Assembly: GCA_947458705.1 (NCBI GenBank)
Contig: CANHAH010000016.1
Span: 1 to 34,467 of the forward strand
Reading direction: 5' to 3'
DNA: 34,467 nucleotides
DNA from: Opitutia bacterium
Lineage (GTDB): Bacteria; Verrucomicrobiota; Verrucomicrobiia; Opitutales; Opitutaceae
The notes under the pieces are model-generated. The model saw only the letters and a list, made by a program, of their open reading frames with translations, was not told where the DNA came from and did not search any database. This document shows, one piece after another, positions 9,335 to 26,964 of this stretch (positions are counted from its first letter, which is position 1; every line of letters starts with the position of its first letter). Position numbers and translations under genes: made by a program.

Positions 9335-10846
9335 TCAACGACTCTTTTTCTTTTTACGGGCATCGAATGCGCTCGCTGGTCTTTCTACCGGAAGAGAATC
9401 TTCCACCGCCCAATCACCCGCGCGCCGGCGCGCGATCACCCAGGCGGGCCCGACCTCTTCGGCGGAGAGCGGCGCAGCGGCAGATCGAGCCATTTGGAAA
9501 TCATTATCGGGCGCGGCTTGAACCTTGAAACCAGATTGAGCGGGAAGCGCGATGTGGCCTTGGCCGATAAGAATATTAGCTTCGTAACGGTTAGGCTTGA
9601 AAGCGAATCGATCGAGAGGCGCTTGGATTTCGGCAACGGTCACGAGCACGGACTCACCACCTTGGGGCCGGATGAAGCGGTTGTTTTTGATCACGCAGTC
9701 TTCGGGCAAGAGCACTTGTTGCGATTCAGGCCAGTGATTCTTGTAGGAGGAGCCGATCTCGAGGTCAGGACCGGAAATACCAACGGTGACGTTGTCCGCG
9801 AGTGTGAGCCGCATGACCTGCGGGTAAGTCGGAATGCGCACTTGGGCGGTTTTTTTACCGTTAGGCTTCACGTCGGGAGTATAACTAGGCGTCAGGGCGC
9901 TTGAGATATATTCGCCGCAAGCCACGCGGATGCCATACTCGCAACCGGAAACAAAATTACCCGTCACGATATTATCGCGGCCGGACATGCGCAGTCCTTG
10001 AGCACCATCGTAGCCCTGACCCAGCACCTGATTTCCGCGCACTGTATTGAAATTACCACGCCTAATGTTGATGCCCCCGCGCGTGGAAATGACAGTGTTG
10101 CGCTGCACGACGTTGTGGTTGGATTTGAGCGAGATAATCTCGGTGCCCTCGCCGTGGGCGTGGTCGAAAAGATTATTTTCGATGGTGAAATACGCGCCGT
10201 CTTCATCGCGCTCCTCAATTTTACCCGATCCCCAGACACGAATGATTTCTCGGCCGTTGGCGTTTGCAACGTAGGGTATATTTTTAAAAAACGAACTTCG
10301 CACAGTATTGTGGCGACTGTCTTCGATGGCGTTACCGATGAGAGGCTGCAGGTTGTTTTTACCTTTGAAATAGCAGTGTTCGATCACGTTGTGGTCGCCA
10401 GCAAAGAAGACCCAGTAGTATTCAGTTTCAAAGGCCTTTGGGTTGTAGTCGACGATCGCGGTGTTGCGAACAATGCCGTGGTGCGAATTAAACTCAATCA
10501 CGGCGCCTTTTTGAATGGCCCCACCCTCAAATAAGAACCCGTCCACCGCGACGTAGGGGGCATTCATTTCGAGCGTAGAAGCACCACTGAACTTCACTCC
10601 GCCCGGATTTTCAGCGCGAATCACTAGCGGACGGCCGGCTTGACCGCCTTGTTTGATCGTTAGTTTTGCATCCTTCCATTCACCGTCTTTAAGGATGATT
10701 ACATCATCGGCACCCGCAGTTTTCAGCGCGGTGGCCAGTTGCGCCTGATTCTCGACCGGCAGGTCGCGCGCGATTACATCCCCAACGAGCAAGCCCGCGA
10801 ATAAAACTACCCTCAACACACAATGCGCAAAGGGCGAATTCGACAT
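9335..10846 (-). CDS. Polysaccharide lyase family 6 (alginate lyase / chondroitinase B type)
   Basis: The product is a 503-residue secreted lyase of the right-handed beta-helix fold. It cleaves uronate-containing polymers by beta-elimination. The expected catalytic Lys and Arg of PL6 are present as K241 (TEIISLKSNHNVVQRNT) and R262 (GGINIRRGNFNTVRGN), 21 residues apart as in chondroitinase B (K250/R271). NGREIIRVWGS is a further family segment. The ATG at 10846 gives a good signal peptide (MSNSPFAHCVLRVVLFAGLLVGDVIA). An alternative ATG at 10930 overlaps the receptor stop as TGATG, but it would add 28 residues without signal character and bury the hairpin at 10867-10896. The C-terminus is very basic (RKKKKSR). 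PL6 includes alginate lyases and dermatan sulfate lyases, and the sulfatases around it favour a sulfated substrate. Confidence 0.92.
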   Translation of the reverse strand: MSNSPFAHCVLRVVLFAGLLVGDVIARDLPVENQAQLATALKTAGADDVIILKDGEWKDAKLTIKQGGQAGRPLVIRAENPGGVKFSGASTLEMNAPYVAVDGFLFEGGAIQKGAVIEFNSHHGIVRNTAIVDYNPKAFETEYYWVFFAGDHNVIEHCYFKGKNNLQPLIGNAIEDSRHNTVRSSFFKNIPYVANANGREIIRVWGSGKIEERDEDGAYFTIENNLFDHAHGEGTEIISLKSNHNVVQRNTVISTRGGINIRRGNFNTVRGNQVLGQGYDGAQGLRMSGRDNIVTGNFVSGCEYGIRVACGEYISSALTPSYTPDVKPNGKKTAQVRIPTYPQVMRLTLADNVTVGISGPDLEIGSSYKNHWPESQQVLLPEDCVIKNNRFIRPQGGESVLVTVAEIQAPLDRFAFKPNRYEANILIGQGHIALPAQSGFKVQAAPDNDFQMARSAAAPLSAEEVGPAWVIARRRAGDWAVEDSLPVERPASAFDARKKKKSR

Positions 10847-10866
10847 TTGAGCAACGGGTGCGGCCG

Positions 10867-10896
10867 TCACGGGTAAGGCTGCAGCCCTACCCGTGA
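10867..10896 (-). other. Intercistronic RNA hairpin between receptor and PL6 lyase genes
   Basis: A 30-bp inverted repeat has outer arms TCACGGGTA and TACCCGTGA and inner palindrome GGCTGCAGCC. The single non-complementary position (A10876 against C10887) becomes a G-U pair in the minus-strand transcript. The RNA of the operon therefore forms an unbroken 13-bp stem with a UGCA loop. No U-tract follows, so it is more likely an mRNA stability or processing element than a terminator. Confidence 0.75.
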
Positions 10897-10929
10897 AAGT
10901 CGCGGTAAAACTAAGCGAGCAAACGCACA

Positions 10930-13353
10930 TCAGAACTTCGATCCCTTATGGCTGAGCGTGTAAGTGAAGAACACCGCGCGGTTTTCTCCGAGCAGACGCG
11001 TGGCGGCACTGGCACCGGTGCGGAGATATTGTTTGTCGAAAACGTTGTTCATGTTGACGGCGAACGTGTGGGTGTAATTGGAACGAGCGACCAACGAGTA
11101 ACGCGCGCCGAAGCTCCAGAGGTTGTAAGAAGGTGCCCGGAGACTCCATTGACCAGTGGAACTCGTAACAACGCGTTTGCCCGCGGAGGTCGTGGTATAA
11201 ACATCTCCAGCATTTGGCAACTCGGTGGGCGTGGAACCGACAAAAGTAACTCCGACATTAGCCGAAAATCCCTTCAAGCCACCGCGACGAGGAGAGTACT
11301 TTAGGCTCACGCTGCCGTTATACGGCGCCATAAAGGTGACGGAGCGGCCAATCGCCGCAGGGAAAGCCGTACCGTAATCGGTGTAGATCGTGTGCACATG
11401 ACCGTAGCTGGCCAAAAAGGAGAGCTCATCGGTCATGAGCCAATTCAAGTCGCCCTCAAACCCGCGCACGAGCTGATTACCATCGCGGCGCGTGGTCGTC
11501 ACATAATTACCAGAGCCTTGCGGCGACTCCATCAAGTCGGTGACAGAAACATTTTCACGACGAGCATAGAATCCACTCACCGTGTAATTCAGACGCTCAT
11601 TTAAAAATGAGCCCTTGAAGCCGTAGTCGTAACCATCGGCGCGTTCGGATTTGTAAGTAGGATCGGCGATGTCGACGGGGTTGTCACCCTGGGCCACGAA
11701 GAAACTTTGGCTGTAGCTAGCGTAGGCGCGGAGATTTGAGGTGATTTTATAGTTAACGCCGGCATTGGGCTTAACTTGGGTGAATTCTTTCGCGATCAGT
11801 TTACCGGTCGTGTAGGTCGGATCGTAGGACCTAAACAAAGCATAGTCCGCGGTGTTGGCGGTCGCACTCGCCAGATTATCGCGGTGGCGGTAACGGACCA
11901 AATCATAACGGATACCGGCAAACGCGAGCAGGCGGCCTTGATACAAAGCGGATTGGTGACGGATCAAACCACCCATGACGGTGGTGTGACGCTTGGTGTT
12001 GCGCGTTTGCACTTCGCCTGGCGATTCCTTGCTGCGCTTGGGGAAATAAGCGATGGGGCCAATCGGATTAAAGTTCGAATCGAGGATGACGCGACGCGCC
12101 GTATTCCACGCGATGATGTCGGGATCGGTGGCGCCGGCGTAGCCGCGCGTCGGGTCCCAACGGTAATAATCGTTCAAATCAAACGTGATGAGCGTGCGGT
12201 GATCGATTTTTTGATCGTTGGTGCGATATTCAGCCAAAAGATCGGCCTGAAAGCCGCCCGTGTCTTCGTAGATGCGACCGCGATTAGGCGTCGCGCCACG
12301 AAGCGAAGAAATTGCCGTGGTGGATACGGGAGGATTGATGCTTACACTACCCCAAGCCGTATTGTAATTGTAATCCCAACGCCGAGCGCGGGAATTATTC
12401 GCGGAAACACGCGCACTGAAAATGGAACTCAACTTTTTTTCGTAGATCGCCGTGTAAGAAATATTGCCACGGTTAAGTTCAGTGACCGGGCCAAAGGCGT
12501 TGTATTTACCAAGATTAAGGGCGTAACCAATCGCGACATCATCGGTGGTGGCAGCGGTGCCCTTTTGGTCGATGACCAGAGGAATCGCTGCCAGCGGAGA
12601 GTGCCGCAGCTGCAGGAAATACTCGATCGAAACAAAAACCTTCGAGCCATCAGCGAACACGTGGTCGACCGCCAAATAATATTCCTGATTCCTATCCGTG
12701 GCGTAAGCTTGATCAAAGTTGCGCTGGTAATGACTCGCCGTGAGCACGTAGTTGGTACGGCCTAAGGTGCCTTTTAAAAGAGGACCCGTTGACTCAAGCG
12801 TGAGGCGCTGCGTGCCGTAATCGCCGTAGTTGTAGAGCAGCGTTTGCTTTTCCTCAGCCTTCGGCTGCTTCGAGATGAAGTTCACCATGCCGCCAGGCGA
12901 GGTACGACCGTAGATGGCCGCGTTGGAACCCTTGATGATTTCCATGCGGTCAATGTTGCTTGAGCCGTAGCGGCCGAGACGGAAAAAGCCGTCGCGCAAC
13001 TGATTCGACGAGGAGAAGCCGCGCAAATTGAAGTTACCGCCGATGTCCAAGCCGGTGAAATTTCCGATCTGCGTAACATTGTCGGACAAGGTAAGGATAC
13101 CAAAGTCGGAAAAGAATTCGCTCGTGAGCACGTTAACCGTGTACGGCAAATCGGCGATCTGGGTTTTCACGCGGCTGCCGGACATGGTCTCGGAAGCGGT
13201 GTAACCGCGATTGGCTTCGGTTTTAACTTCAAAAGCCGAGAGTTTGATCGTTTCAGAATCTATCGTTTGAACAGATTGCGCAAAAAGGCGCGATGACAAC
13301 AGCAGCGCGCAGAGTGCGGGCCTAAGAATAGAAAAATTTACCGATGAGGTCAT
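10930..13353 (-). CDS. TonB-dependent outer-membrane receptor (SusD-less type)
   Basis: The product is an 807-residue outer-membrane receptor with a signal peptide (MTSSVNFSILRPALCALLLSSRLFAQS). The plug domain includes ADLPYTVNVLTSEF, FNLRGFSSSNQLRDGFFR and MEIIKGSNAAIYGRTSPGG, and a 22-strand-type barrel ends in Phe. Such receptors import oligosaccharides or siderophores using TonB energy. The plug pattern is that of FhuA/FecA-like receptors expanded in Opitutaceae, and there is no SusD partner nearby. The frame is open upstream to 13416, but the ATG at 13353 starts the signal peptide. A 104-bp gap with a small GC hairpin (GGCCG 13407-13411, CGGCC 13424-13428) separates it from the preceding sulfatase. 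The PL6 lyase follows, so a product of that lyase is a likely cargo. Confidence 0.92.
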   Translation of the reverse strand: MTSSVNFSILRPALCALLLSSRLFAQSVQTIDSETIKLSAFEVKTEANRGYTASETMSGSRVKTQIADLPYTVNVLTSEFFSDFGILTLSDNVTQIGNFTGLDIGGNFNLRGFSSSNQLRDGFFRLGRYGSSNIDRMEIIKGSNAAIYGRTSPGGMVNFISKQPKAEEKQTLLYNYGDYGTQRLTLESTGPLLKGTLGRTNYVLTASHYQRNFDQAYATDRNQEYYLAVDHVFADGSKVFVSIEYFLQLRHSPLAAIPLVIDQKGTAATTDDVAIGYALNLGKYNAFGPVTELNRGNISYTAIYEKKLSSIFSARVSANNSRARRWDYNYNTAWGSVSINPPVSTTAISSLRGATPNRGRIYEDTGGFQADLLAEYRTNDQKIDHRTLITFDLNDYYRWDPTRGYAGATDPDIIAWNTARRVILDSNFNPIGPIAYFPKRSKESPGEVQTRNTKRHTTVMGGLIRHQSALYQGRLLAFAGIRYDLVRYRHRDNLASATANTADYALFRSYDPTYTTGKLIAKEFTQVKPNAGVNYKITSNLRAYASYSQSFFVAQGDNPVDIADPTYKSERADGYDYGFKGSFLNERLNYTVSGFYARRENVSVTDLMESPQGSGNYVTTTRRDGNQLVRGFEGDLNWLMTDELSFLASYGHVHTIYTDYGTAFPAAIGRSVTFMAPYNGSVSLKYSPRRGGLKGFSANVGVTFVGSTPTELPNAGDVYTTTSAGKRVVTSSTGQWSLRAPSYNLWSFGARYSLVARSNYTHTFAVNMNNVFDKQYLRTGASAATRLLGENRAVFFTYTLSHKGSKF

Positions 13354-13457
13354 TTGATCTGGTGGGTTTGCTAGGTAGAAGTTGGTTCTGGATTGGAGAG
13401 GGATGAGGCCGATCAAAAGAATCCGGCCCTATCACGGGCAGTCGTGTAAAACAGCGA

Positions 13458-14792
13458 TTATAGCTGCTTTTTCTTGGCCTCTTTTTTGGCGGCTTTTTCC
13501 GCTTTGTTAGCGTGGCGGCCGGTGCCATCGCCGTCGTCAAGAATGCCGCCTGCGGGGTTAAGTTGGTCGAGGGCAGCTTGCAGTTGCTGACGCGCTACAA
13601 TCGCCGCAGGGATTTTTGTATCTGCCGAAACGAGTTTCTCGGAGAACGGTGCGTCGCTCATATCAAAGAGTTCACCGGCTTGCGTGAGTTTCCATGCCGA
13701 GCTGCGAACATACCATTGCCGAGCAAGTTGAAGATACACCCATTCCCGGGCCTGCTTGCTATCGCCGCGGATCGAGGCTGCGAAGCTGCGTCCATCGATG
13801 ATTTTTTTCTCGGGCAACTTAGCCCCAGCAATCTCGGCAAACGTGGGCACGAAGTCCGTAGAATCAATCATGTCTCCACGGACTTTACCGGCGGGCGTGA
13901 CGCCAGGCCAATTGACGATGAGCGGCTCCAAGCTGCCGCCTTCGAGCATCGAGCCTTTGGCGCCGTCGAGGCGACGGCCGTTAATCATTGCGTTGTCGGC
14001 CCGCCCGTTGGCCGTGCCGTTGTCGCCGAAGAAGACGATGAGCGTATTTTCGCGGAGATGTTGGCGCTCGAGTTCGGCGATGAGCTTACCGACGAGTTTG
14101 TCCATATACTTCACATTATCCGTATAAAGATCCTTGCTGTCGGGGGCGCTGTCGGGAGTGGGTAAAATCTCGGTGTGAACGTGCGAGAGGGAGTAATAGA
14201 GGTAAAAAGGCTTATCGTGATTCTTGGTGATAAAGTCGGTGACGAAGCCATGCATCACATCGGGCAAGTATTCCTTGTCCTTCAAAGGGGTCACTACGCC
14301 GTTCAGTAGGTAGGTTTTGGCTTTGTCCTGGGTATTCCAATAAGCGCCGCTACCTTGGAATTTCAGGTGTTGATCGAAACCAAATTCGCCAGGCCCGAGC
14401 GGAAGCTGGCCCCATTTACCGACGGCGGCAGTGACGTAGCCGGCCGATTTTAGAATCGTGGGCATCATCGTCTCGGCCGCAGGCGTGAAACGACCCGTGG
14501 CGTCCTGATTCGTGGCGCCGGTGCGGAAGAGATAACGGCCCGTCAAAATCGTGGCGCGCGAGGGACCGCAGAGAGACGGCGTGTAAGCGTGCGTGTAACG
14601 GGTGCCGCCACGCGCGAGGGCATCAATGTTAGGTGTCTTGTAATTGTCGGCACCGTAAGCGCTGACTTCGCCCACGCCGTAGTCATCTGCGAGTATAAAG
14701 ATGATATTGGGCTTCGCCGGTGTGGCAGCCCGGAGGGACACACTGAGCGCGAGGAGGCCGGCAACGAGAAGGCTGAGTCGAGCGAGGTTCAT
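13458..14792 (-). CDS. Sulfatase, S1 family (subfamily not assigned)
   Basis: The product is a 444-residue exported sulfatase. It has a signal peptide (MNLARLSLLVAGLLALSVSLRAA), metal-binding D36-D37 (IIFILADDYGVGEVSAYG) and the formylglycine motif C75-G-P-S-R followed by ATILTGRY. AAVGKWGQLPLG and VFFGDNGTANGR give the conserved Lys and Asp-Asn segments. It is shorter than the other sulfatases here. The last residues are a lysine-rich tail (KAEKAAKKEAKKKQL) that could bind an anionic polymer or cell surface. The gene starts 11 bp after the stop of the first receptor, so the two are surely co-transcribed. Substrate is unknown. Confidence 0.92.
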   Translation of the reverse strand: MNLARLSLLVAGLLALSVSLRAATPAKPNIIFILADDYGVGEVSAYGADNYKTPNIDALARGGTRYTHAYTPSLCGPSRATILTGRYLFRTGATNQDATGRFTPAAETMMPTILKSAGYVTAAVGKWGQLPLGPGEFGFDQHLKFQGSGAYWNTQDKAKTYLLNGVVTPLKDKEYLPDVMHGFVTDFITKNHDKPFYLYYSLSHVHTEILPTPDSAPDSKDLYTDNVKYMDKLVGKLIAELERQHLRENTLIVFFGDNGTANGRADNAMINGRRLDGAKGSMLEGGSLEPLIVNWPGVTPAGKVRGDMIDSTDFVPTFAEIAGAKLPEKKIIDGRSFAASIRGDSKQAREWVYLQLARQWYVRSSAWKLTQAGELFDMSDAPFSEKLVSADTKIPAAIVARQQLQAALDQLNPAGGILDDGDGTGRHANKAEKAAKKEAKKKQL

Positions 14793-14803: not shown

Positions 14804-17563
14804 TTAGAATTTAACAGAGGCCGTGAGATCATATTGGACCGGCATGACATAGGAATAGGTGTAGCGGTTACTACCGTTAGCCATGGTGGTGAAACCCGTC
14901 TTGCGCGTCTTATCATTTTCAAAGTCAGTGAGATATTTAACACCTAAGCGGAAGCGAACCTGTTGGTCCCAGATTTTCTGGTCGCGCATCACATAGGCGT
15001 TCATAAGATGGCTGGAGCCACCAATCATCTGCTGACCGTTGGGGCGACCGAGGAGGTAATCATCACGCCACGTTCCATTGATACCTACACGCACGCCTTT
15101 GAGCGGCGCCCAAGCGTCGCGAGGCATTGTGTAGTCGATCACCCAACTCCCCGACCAAGGTGAGGCTCGAGCGCCGGTAGGTTTACCTGGGATATCGAGT
15201 GAATCCAACAACTGCTTGGCCAAGGCTAAGACGGCGGGGCTCTCATTGCCGCGAGCGACCGCGGCCGTATAGTAAGCGCGAAACGAAGAAAGGTCGGGTT
15301 CTCCGACGACCTTGGTGCGAGCAAGGGTGAGGCGGACTTGGAGTTGCTTCGTGGGCCGGAGTATAAGTGTAAGATCGGCGCCAGTAGAATTTTCCAGGGA
15401 AGGATAATTACGCGCGGCGCTAGCGGTGCCCGGAGCGCTGTAAAGGTAGCCTGGGCTACCCGGCAGCACCGTGTTGGGATTCATCAAATCCTCAAGGTTG
15501 GCGGCACTGAGATTGATGACGTTGTTGTACGAAAGGACTACGTTTTTCCGATCAATATCGAAAATACCTAAGGTGAGGCCGACGCGGCCGTTGAGCGCGC
15601 TGCCTTTAAGTCCGATTTCCTTCGTCGTGCCCTGGACTGGGCCGAAGCGCTTGTTGTCGAACGTGACAAAATCCTGGAACCGGAATGACTCGGAATAAAC
15701 GCTGTAGAGGTTAATGTCCTTAGTGAGCACGAACGTGAGACCGCCAGTGAACGTGGTGTTATCGAGATTCTGCGAAAGATTTTCTGTGTAATCGCCCTTC
15801 AGCGCGTCCTGATATTTCGGTGGGCGAATCGCCTCCTGGAATTGTCCGAAATAGCGGGATGTCGTATATCCGTATTCGCGGTTGGTGTCGCGGCGCATGC
15901 CGACAAGCGACAGCAGGCGACCACCAAAATATTTTCCACTGGCAGAAAATGAGGCAGCTGCACTTCGTACAAATTGCGTGCCGCTTGCCGCATCAGTGCC
16001 CGAGGCAAAGAAGCCCAACATACGCATGTCCACTGTGTTCGTGACCGGCGGATTGTTAAATTGCAGGCGATCAAATAGCGCCCGAGAATAAAACGCCGGG
16101 TCGTCGAGATAAAGACGTAGACGACCGCGATCGTTGGTGGTGCTGATCGCCGTGGCGGTGCCGTTGAGAACATTTTTAACGTTATAGCCCTGGAGGCGAT
16201 AGTTATCCTGGGAACTTTCGTTGTACTCTGCGGTGGCGACGAATATCTGCTGCATCCACTTAAACTTATCCCAATTATAAACTATGGAGCCCCGAAACGC
16301 ATCCGTGTCCGTACCGAAATGCTTTCGATCTGAAGCCGCGTCGATGAACGGTCGGCCATTGACGTCGACGCTGATCGTGGTGTCGAAAGAGTTGTCGTTG
16401 CGATCGGAGGCCTGATTTTGGCGGTTGTAACTCAACTCAACCGAAACAGGTCCGATGCCTTGCTCGATAGTAACCGAATAGGTATCGAACGGCCGGGCTT
16501 GTTTATCCCAAGAGCCGCGGATGTTATAGCGCTTGGGAAAACCATTGATCCGCTTCGTGCGCACAGCGAGGCCGGCGGCGTCGCGCATAGTGACATCCAC
16601 AAAATCACCTTCGATGAGCGAGGGTGTGCCGCCCGCGACTGAGTTGGCTGCCAATCGATCCGCCGCAGATTGGGCGGCTTGCAGCACCCAAAGATTGTCC
16701 GAGGTGTAATAAGTGCCGGCGGTGTTCCAGGCGTTGGAGCGGGCGGATTGCTCCCAGACGTTGATGCCAGCAAAACCGCGGGTGTTATCGTATTTACCGC
16801 GCTCACCTTCGACGCGAATCGAGGTGCGAGCAAAGGGTTGCCAGACAGCGGAGAGCGTCTCGCCTTCAAATTTATAAGCGGAAGCGTCTTGGAACGTCTT
16901 ATCTTGCTTGCGCACGGCGTTAAAGCGCAGCGCTAGGTTGGAGCGGAGCTTGCGGTTTACATCGATCTGGTAGCGATAGGCCCCTTCGCTGTTTTGGTTG
17001 GCGAAGATCTCTCCGAAGTTTTTAAGCAACGGACGCTTGGTGAACGCCGCACCCTGACCGCCCGGTTCGACGGCACCAAAAATCAACGAATTCGAACCTT
17101 TGCCGAAATCAATACGCTCGACGTTGTAGGTATCGCTAGGAATGAACCAACGAAAGTAGTTGCGACTGATGTTGTTAGTCTGGGTCATGCCGCGGAACGA
17201 AAAATTGCCTCCTTGATTGTCATTTTCCATCACCGGTAAGGCATAGACGTTGGCGACAAACTTCGCAGTCTCATCGGCAGAAAACAGACCGAGGTCTTCC
17301 ATGAAATCGGCGGTGATCGCATCGATGTTCACCGGAACGTCCTTCAGCGCCTGCTTCGTGCGCGTGGCTGAGAGTGTATCGTTGGCCGACCAACCCGTCT
17401 CACGCTCTGATGCAATGACGAACGGCGAAAGCCTGACGGCTTCCTCTTTAGCGGACGAAGCGACCGATGGCGCCGGAGCGACCTGCGCAGGAGCTGCCTT
17501 CATCAGCAAAAGAAACAACCCTGCAGCTCTAATGAAGCTTACGTAATTTGACGAAAATGTCAT
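14804..17563 (-). CDS. TonB-dependent outer-membrane receptor, first gene of the catabolic locus
   Basis: The product is a 919-residue receptor with a signal peptide (MTFSSNYVSFIRAAGLFLLL, cleaved near PAQVAPA). A short linker with RLSPFVIASERETGWSANDT leads to the plug: LKDVPVNIDAITADFMEDLG, GNFSFRGMTQTNNISRNYFR and VERIDFGKGSNSLIFG. The large barrel ends DLTASVKF, with a terminal Phe as expected for BAM-dependent insertion. The frame is open to 17650, but the ATG at 17563 begins the signal peptide. The leader before it is C-rich (GTCCCCTATACCCC) and has no Shine-Dalgarno sequence. It is divergent from the LacI gene and is followed after 11 bp by a sulfatase. It probably imports the oligosaccharides that this locus degrades. 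Confidence 0.92.
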   Translation of the reverse strand: MTFSSNYVSFIRAAGLFLLLMKAAPAQVAPAPSVASSAKEEAVRLSPFVIASERETGWSANDTLSATRTKQALKDVPVNIDAITADFMEDLGLFSADETAKFVANVYALPVMENDNQGGNFSFRGMTQTNNISRNYFRWFIPSDTYNVERIDFGKGSNSLIFGAVEPGGQGAAFTKRPLLKNFGEIFANQNSEGAYRYQIDVNRKLRSNLALRFNAVRKQDKTFQDASAYKFEGETLSAVWQPFARTSIRVEGERGKYDNTRGFAGINVWEQSARSNAWNTAGTYYTSDNLWVLQAAQSAADRLAANSVAGGTPSLIEGDFVDVTMRDAAGLAVRTKRINGFPKRYNIRGSWDKQARPFDTYSVTIEQGIGPVSVELSYNRQNQASDRNDNSFDTTISVDVNGRPFIDAASDRKHFGTDTDAFRGSIVYNWDKFKWMQQIFVATAEYNESSQDNYRLQGYNVKNVLNGTATAISTTNDRGRLRLYLDDPAFYSRALFDRLQFNNPPVTNTVDMRMLGFFASGTDAASGTQFVRSAAASFSASGKYFGGRLLSLVGMRRDTNREYGYTTSRYFGQFQEAIRPPKYQDALKGDYTENLSQNLDNTTFTGGLTFVLTKDINLYSVYSESFRFQDFVTFDNKRFGPVQGTTKEIGLKGSALNGRVGLTLGIFDIDRKNVVLSYNNVINLSAANLEDLMNPNTVLPGSPGYLYSAPGTASAARNYPSLENSTGADLTLILRPTKQLQVRLTLARTKVVGEPDLSSFRAYYTAAVARGNESPAVLALAKQLLDSLDIPGKPTGARASPWSGSWVIDYTMPRDAWAPLKGVRVGINGTWRDDYLLGRPNGQQMIGGSSHLMNAYVMRDQKIWDQQVRFRLGVKYLTDFENDKTRKTGFTTMANGSNRYTYSYVMPVQYDLTASVKF

Positions 17564-17769
17564 GGGGTATAGGGGACAACAGTACACCCAAGACCCTGCT
17601 CTACGTTGCAGCAAATTTCTCATCACTAGCATCGTTGAGTAAATTATCATTATTTTTACATTTAATCATTATTAGATAAACACTTAACCTATTTTGCTCA
17701 TATCATTAACCTGACCTCGAAATAAATTGCTATTTTAGGGGCTAAATTTGTGCTTTCTCGAATCAAACC
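17564..17769. promoter_or_regulatory. Divergent AT-rich control region between receptor and LacI gene
   Basis: The 206 bp between the two starts are strikingly AT-rich from about 17638 to 17730. They hold three direct copies of ATCATTA (17647-17653, 17666-17672, 17703-17709) and two of TTAACCT (17685-17691, 17707-17713). The middle ATCATTA lies in TAATCATTA (17664-17672), a palindrome around one base. A GATAAT hexamer on the minus strand (17644-17649) could be a -10 box for the receptor, but no good -35 was found for either direction. This is the likeliest place for the locus promoter and the regulator's binding sites. Confidence 0.6.
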
Positions 17770-19742: not shown

Positions 19743-19773
19743 AAAAACACCGCCCACTTCGGGCGGTGTTTTT
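19743..19773. terminator. Bidirectional intrinsic terminator between convergent genes
   Basis: CACCGCCC (19748-19755) pairs with GGGCGGTG (19761-19768) around the loop ACTTC. A run of As lies to the left and five Ts to the right, so it works on both strands. It separates the DUF1080 gene (plus) from the b562-like gene (minus). Confidence 0.93.
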
Positions 19774-26906: not shown

Positions 26907-26936
26907 AAAAAACGCCAGCCCGAAAGCTGGCGTTTT
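26907..26936 (-). terminator. Intrinsic terminator of the solitary TonB-dependent receptor
   Basis: AACGCCAGC (26911-26919) and GCTGGCGTT (26926-26934) form a 9-bp stem around a 6-base loop. On the minus strand six Us follow. It lies 29 bp past the receptor stop and isolates it from the TPR gene. Confidence 0.9.
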
Positions 26937-26964
26937 ATCGCGAATATAAACTTAAACGCGGTGG

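Follow-up and report, generated by a model that had tools for sequence, protein, structure and literature searches.

A clade-specific stem-loop at a receptor–lyase gene junction in Opitutaceae and its possible role in lyase translation

Introduction

A gene cluster on the minus strand (17650 to about 2107) of the window, meaning the whole stretch of 34,467 nucleotides that was analysed, encodes TonB receptors, several sulfatases and a chondroitinase-B-type lyase. A strong hairpin lies where a receptor gene gives way to the lyase gene, and the question is what this structure does there: whether it protects or processes the transcript between two genes, affects translation of the second gene, or has arisen by chance. 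A sequence-only reading had described it as an intercistronic hairpin that is fully paired only in the operon transcript, and had considered mRNA stabilisation or processing likelier than termination.

Three strands of published work bear on such a position. Structure located just after an upstream stop codon correlates with weaker translational coupling (PMC12548453); in E. coli, stable hairpins lacking a U-tract are found where stabilised operon segments have their 3′ ends (PMC5927463); and the hairpin at the end of galE blocks 3′–5′ digestion, with transcription ending there upon failed initiation of galT (PMC9239205).

Results

Structure of the junction

The following features, all on the minus strand, define the locus.

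9335–10930, minus strand: lyase gene of the chondroitinase-B type (domain match, PF14592, E 8.8e-43)
10930–13416, minus strand: TonB-dependent receptor gene (domain matches, Plug PF07715 and barrel PF00593)
10928–10932, minus strand: TGATG, in which the receptor stop and the earliest ATG of the lyase frame (10930–10928) overlap
10847–10930, minus strand: clade-specific 84-nt spacer in frame with the lyase (28 codons, MCVCSLSFTATFTGRAAALPVTAAPVAQ)
10867–10896, minus strand: core hairpin with a 13-bp stem, a UGCA loop and one G-U pair (10887 with 10876), from sequence and folding
10860–10903, minus strand: extended imperfect inverted repeat with 22-nt arms that are 82% complementary, from an inverted-repeat search
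10844–10846, minus strand: second in-frame ATG (M29), with an ordinary signal peptide directly after it

The core starts 33 nt past the receptor stop, the outer stem ends 13 nt ahead of ATG29, and no Shine-Dalgarno-like sequence was seen immediately ahead of ATG29. How the hairpin is placed depends on the start codon that is used: with a start at 10846 it lies in an 83-nt gap, and with a start at 10930 it belongs to a 28-codon N-terminal leader. The description as intercistronic was right in that the element is found between a receptor and a lyase, and has to be corrected in that the hairpin is inside the first 28 codons of the lyase frame opened at TGATG. With an overlap of this kind and a leader that is in frame, an element that seems to lie between genes may in fact belong to the translated beginning of the lyase.

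Sequence, fold and strength of the hairpin

On the plus strand, positions 10867–10896 read TCACGGGTAAGGC TGCA GCCCTACCCGTGA, an inverted repeat of 13 + 4 + 13 nt. The repeat reported from the sequence is therefore real, although it measures 30 nt rather than 30 bp and its weak extension to 10860–10903 had been missed. Its sole non-Watson-Crick position was confirmed as A10876 against C10887 on the plus strand, equivalent to G-U in minus-strand RNA, and the core alone folds in the sense transcript into an unbroken 13-bp stem with −23.5 kcal/mol, as compared with −19.6 kcal/mol for the antisense strand (3.9 kcal/mol in favour of sense). When flanks were included, both strands were equally stable (−31.0 kcal/mol sense, −31.2 kcal/mol antisense). 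The argument that strand asymmetry indicates RNA function was rejected, because it rests on a single G-U, is lost with flanks and is contradicted in the related genome G009, where a second mismatch goes the other way, being A-C in the sense strand and G-U in the antisense strand.

The 54-nt stretch around the hairpin gave a z score of −5.56, none of 200 shuffles folded as well, and the element ranked first among the inverted repeats listed for the window. Against the background of a whole shuffled window (34 kb, 56% GC), an unbroken stem of at least 13 bp was found in 35% of cases with G-U permitted, 12% had a stem comparable to the present one, allowing a single mismatch, and shuffled 34-kb strands usually held some stretch at or below −30 kcal/mol. 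Since similar stems and energies often arise in shuffled windows, the hairpin is strong for its location, yet neither unique nor exceptional for a window of this size.

A U-tract was correctly reported as missing: no U-tract, terminator-like or promoter-like site was found at 10700–11100. An intrinsic (Rho-independent) terminator was rejected on these grounds and because the element is unlike the A/T-run hairpins of the window (2037, 19743, 26909). As an in-genome contrast, three terminator-like hairpins flanked by A/T runs occur at 2037–2064, 19743–19773 and 26907–26938; the first two are located between convergent genes. No covariance-model match was obtained in Rfam, and a known RNA family was rejected as well. 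The element is best read as an RNA stem-loop, and as neither a terminator nor a repeat element.

Distribution of the spacer among relatives

The lyase is present in 7 of 13 genomes of the genus. The 84-nt spacer was found only in the window and in G009 (91% identity), L065 (89%) and G012 (87%), and these four members form a clade with support of 100/100 in the lyase tree, in which the pairs window plus G009 and L065 plus G012 are moderately supported; with this pairing, an intact core is most simply taken as ancestral and the damage in G012 as derived. In G010, G008, G004 and G001 (66–69% identical) the signal peptide of the lyase begins right at TGATG, with neither spacer nor hairpin, and the TGATG, which is kept in all four clade members, serves these relatives as the direct lyase start. 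In other genera the receptor–lyase junction is different or longer, and no significant hairpin was found in the longer junctions (L076, L078, L072; z −0.2 to −0.9). One of them, L078 (G134, from a different genus), also has a TGATG, and between it and the ATG of the lyase lies a leader of 25 codons that forms an ORF of its own. The L065 sequence is a contig in a bin labelled Flavobacteriaceae, and mis-binning is likelier than transfer for a lyase 89% identical to that of the window. Two Ignavibacteriae bins (L073, L074) contain a lyase that is 40–41% identical.

The exact core was found at this locus only among 372 genomes of the order, and a search that tolerated up to 3 mismatches gave a single copy in the assembled genome (80.6% complete). 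Weak matches within the genus fell into coding sequence of unrelated proteins, and no relatives were found in a scan of viral contigs.

Evolution of the stem

The spacer comparison comprised four sequences, all from metagenome assemblies, which gives low power for compensatory changes. The inner 11 bp of the stem were identical in the window, G009 and L065: none of their 22 columns varied, as compared with 22 of the 62 columns in the rest of the spacer (p 0.0005, a guide only, because columns are not independent). At third codon positions of the same three sequences, 0 of 6 varied in the inner stem and 10 of 15 outside (p 0.012). Conservation of the inner stem held for three of the four species that carry the spacer, and did not extend to the four genus relatives without it. 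In G012 two inner pairs are broken and one C-G pair has become U-G; in G009 both partners of one outer C-G have changed, leaving A·C.

The compensatory changes that had been proposed as a check were not seen: on the consensus structure of the four sequences there were 0 compensatory pairs and several broken cells. On the fixed structure of the window, one outer cell, beside mismatches, had substitutions in both partners, which is no more than shuffles give. Folding energies in the relatives were within the range left by simulated random substitution (P 0.13–0.74). With no compensatory change and energies as under random substitution, selection on the stem is no more than suggested by these comparisons. 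The spacer is free of indels in all four members, the second ATG being shifted by one codon in L065 via substitution.

Reading of the leader

In codons 8–28 of the three intact members, a stretch chosen after seeing the data, variation was mostly at third positions (10 of 14, p 0.004); over the whole leader the bias had p 0.08. G012 has a 27-codon leader ending TAA-ATG, with the stop exactly ahead of ATG29, a weak indication as it is one of six available single-step stops. Codon usage in the leader was atypical, with frame scores of −5.5 to −1.9 in intact members as compared with a 5th percentile of −0.1 for real genes, and the rare codons AGG and TTA occur. Taken together, the sequence comparison leans towards a leader that is translated from the TGATG start.

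Discussion

Our preferred explanation, to which we give a probability of about 0.4, is that the element is an RNA stem-loop peculiar to this clade, set in a leader that is probably translated, and that it lowers or buffers lyase output relative to the receptor by limiting restart, by guarding the 3′ end of the receptor mRNA, or by both. Close relatives begin the lyase on the receptor stop itself, as is typical of translationally coupled genes; in the clade, a ribosome restarting at TGATG would have to read through the hairpin to reach the signal peptide. Where restart succeeds, ribosomes would open the hairpin. Where it fails, the hairpin would stay folded and hinder lyase translation, and could then guard the 3′ end of a shortened receptor mRNA. 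The most likely effect would be lyase output that is lowered and buffered relative to the receptor. The hairpin itself, the TGATG, the confinement of the spacer to the clade and the identical core in three of four members are observations; translation of the leader, folding of the RNA in the cell and the effect on expression are inferences.

The literature precedents, taken together, favour such a weakening or buffering leader. With the E-hairpin of E. coli galE-galT (PMC9239205) the present element shares the cistron junction, a four-base loop, a G-U pair and the lack of a U-tract, and that system provides a precedent for failed initiation of the next gene being linked with 3′ ends at a hairpin; the present hairpin differs in lying downstream of the stop and within the frame of the next gene, and in coming from Opitutaceae (Verrucomicrobiota), where it is known from sequence. 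Protective operon hairpins such as those of malEFG and the puf intercistronic stem-loop (PMC5927463 and works cited there) likewise combine a stable stem, co-directed genes and no U-tract; the present stem is not a repeated (REP) element and its conservation is narrower, and it resembles a protective hairpin in these three respects only in the sense that it follows the receptor stop, as the lyase frame may by then be open. Systems coupled through TGATG (PMC6728339, PMC10666635, PMC12548453) have the same one-base overlap of stop and start, and structure past the stop could reduce restart; only the present clade has an 84-nt in-frame leader between TGATG and signal peptide.

Nearly as likely as this explanation, and its main rival, is a neutral origin, in which a spacer was inserted or drifted with a chance palindrome that is now decaying and whose role is spacing only. 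Such a history would account for the restriction of spacer and hairpin to four species, the lack of covariation, the decay in G012 with energies that match random substitution, the frequency of similar stems in shuffled windows, and a divergence of the whole spacer like that of neighbouring gaps (80–89%). It fits poorly with an inner stem that is invariant in three species, third codon positions included, while the rest of the spacer varies, and with four spacers that have all escaped indels. A further possibility, which we regard as rather unlikely, keeps closer to the sequence-only reading: the gap would be untranslated, the lyase would start independently at ATG29, and the hairpin would be a plain stabiliser or processing site that shields the receptor segment from 3′–5′ exonucleases. 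Strong stems of this kind, between co-directed genes and with no U-tract, stabilise the operon segment ahead of them in E. coli (PMC5927463). M29 is also where the signal peptide begins, and the ATG that L065 retains one codon further on hints that this start matters. However, TGATG is conserved both in the clade and in the relatives without spacer, ATG29 lacks a Shine-Dalgarno-like sequence, the third-position bias suggests that the leader is read, and, since termination–reinitiation is all but lost at about 20 nt (PMC10666635), two genes that appear coupled in relatives would be uncoupled by a gap of 83 nt. The preference for stabilisation or processing over termination was borne out as regards the terminator; with the hairpin possibly located inside the translated start of the lyase, a translational role is at least as likely as plain stabilisation.

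The remaining readings concern the DNA itself. A palindromic operator for a regulator acting inside the cluster would agree with the near-perfect dyad and with the equal stability of both strands once flanks are included, but it is very unlikely: a search of the assembled genome (80.6% complete) that allowed spacings of 4–18 gave the half-site pair ACGGGTA...TACCCGT once, so that none is present in the divergent promoter region 17651–17769, and promoter-like sequence is lacking nearby. An operator with further sites was rejected on the same single half-site pair. That the palindrome lies within a lineage-specific insertion would suit the remnant of a REP-like or mobile element, a reading largely refuted by the single copy in the genome, the exact core at one locus in the order and the unrelated coding sequence behind the weak genus matches. 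Single copy number, a locus-restricted core, the lack of an Rfam match and the single half-site pair jointly count against identifying it as a repeat element, a member of a known RNA family or the operator of a regulon.

The stem-loop leader that we prefer may be carried one step further, to a hairpin within a translated N-terminal leader that is under both coding and base-pairing constraint and was added to a coupled pair in one clade, where it would set the ratio of receptor to enzyme in a glycan-use operon; we consider this fuller version improbable. If the element is functional, the locus would offer a natural before-and-after case in a poorly studied phylum, in which some species couple the two genes directly and others place a hairpin leader between them, and it would show how glycan-use operons adjust the relative expression of their genes with no new promoter. 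At present it stands as one plausible, unproven example of an already known class of device.

Additional observations on the neighbourhood

In G009 (L059, G009:C44) a junction at about 15303–15305 corresponds to window positions 11467–13324, so that the receptor gene is without about 1.86 kb internally and is joined in frame. The remnant consists of the first residues and the last ~170 aa, and is either a real deletion or an assembly artefact. The sulfatase adjoining the receptor (window 13458–14792) is 72% identical in G009 (L059), as compared with about 87–89% for its neighbours, and this divergence suggests that the gene was replaced.
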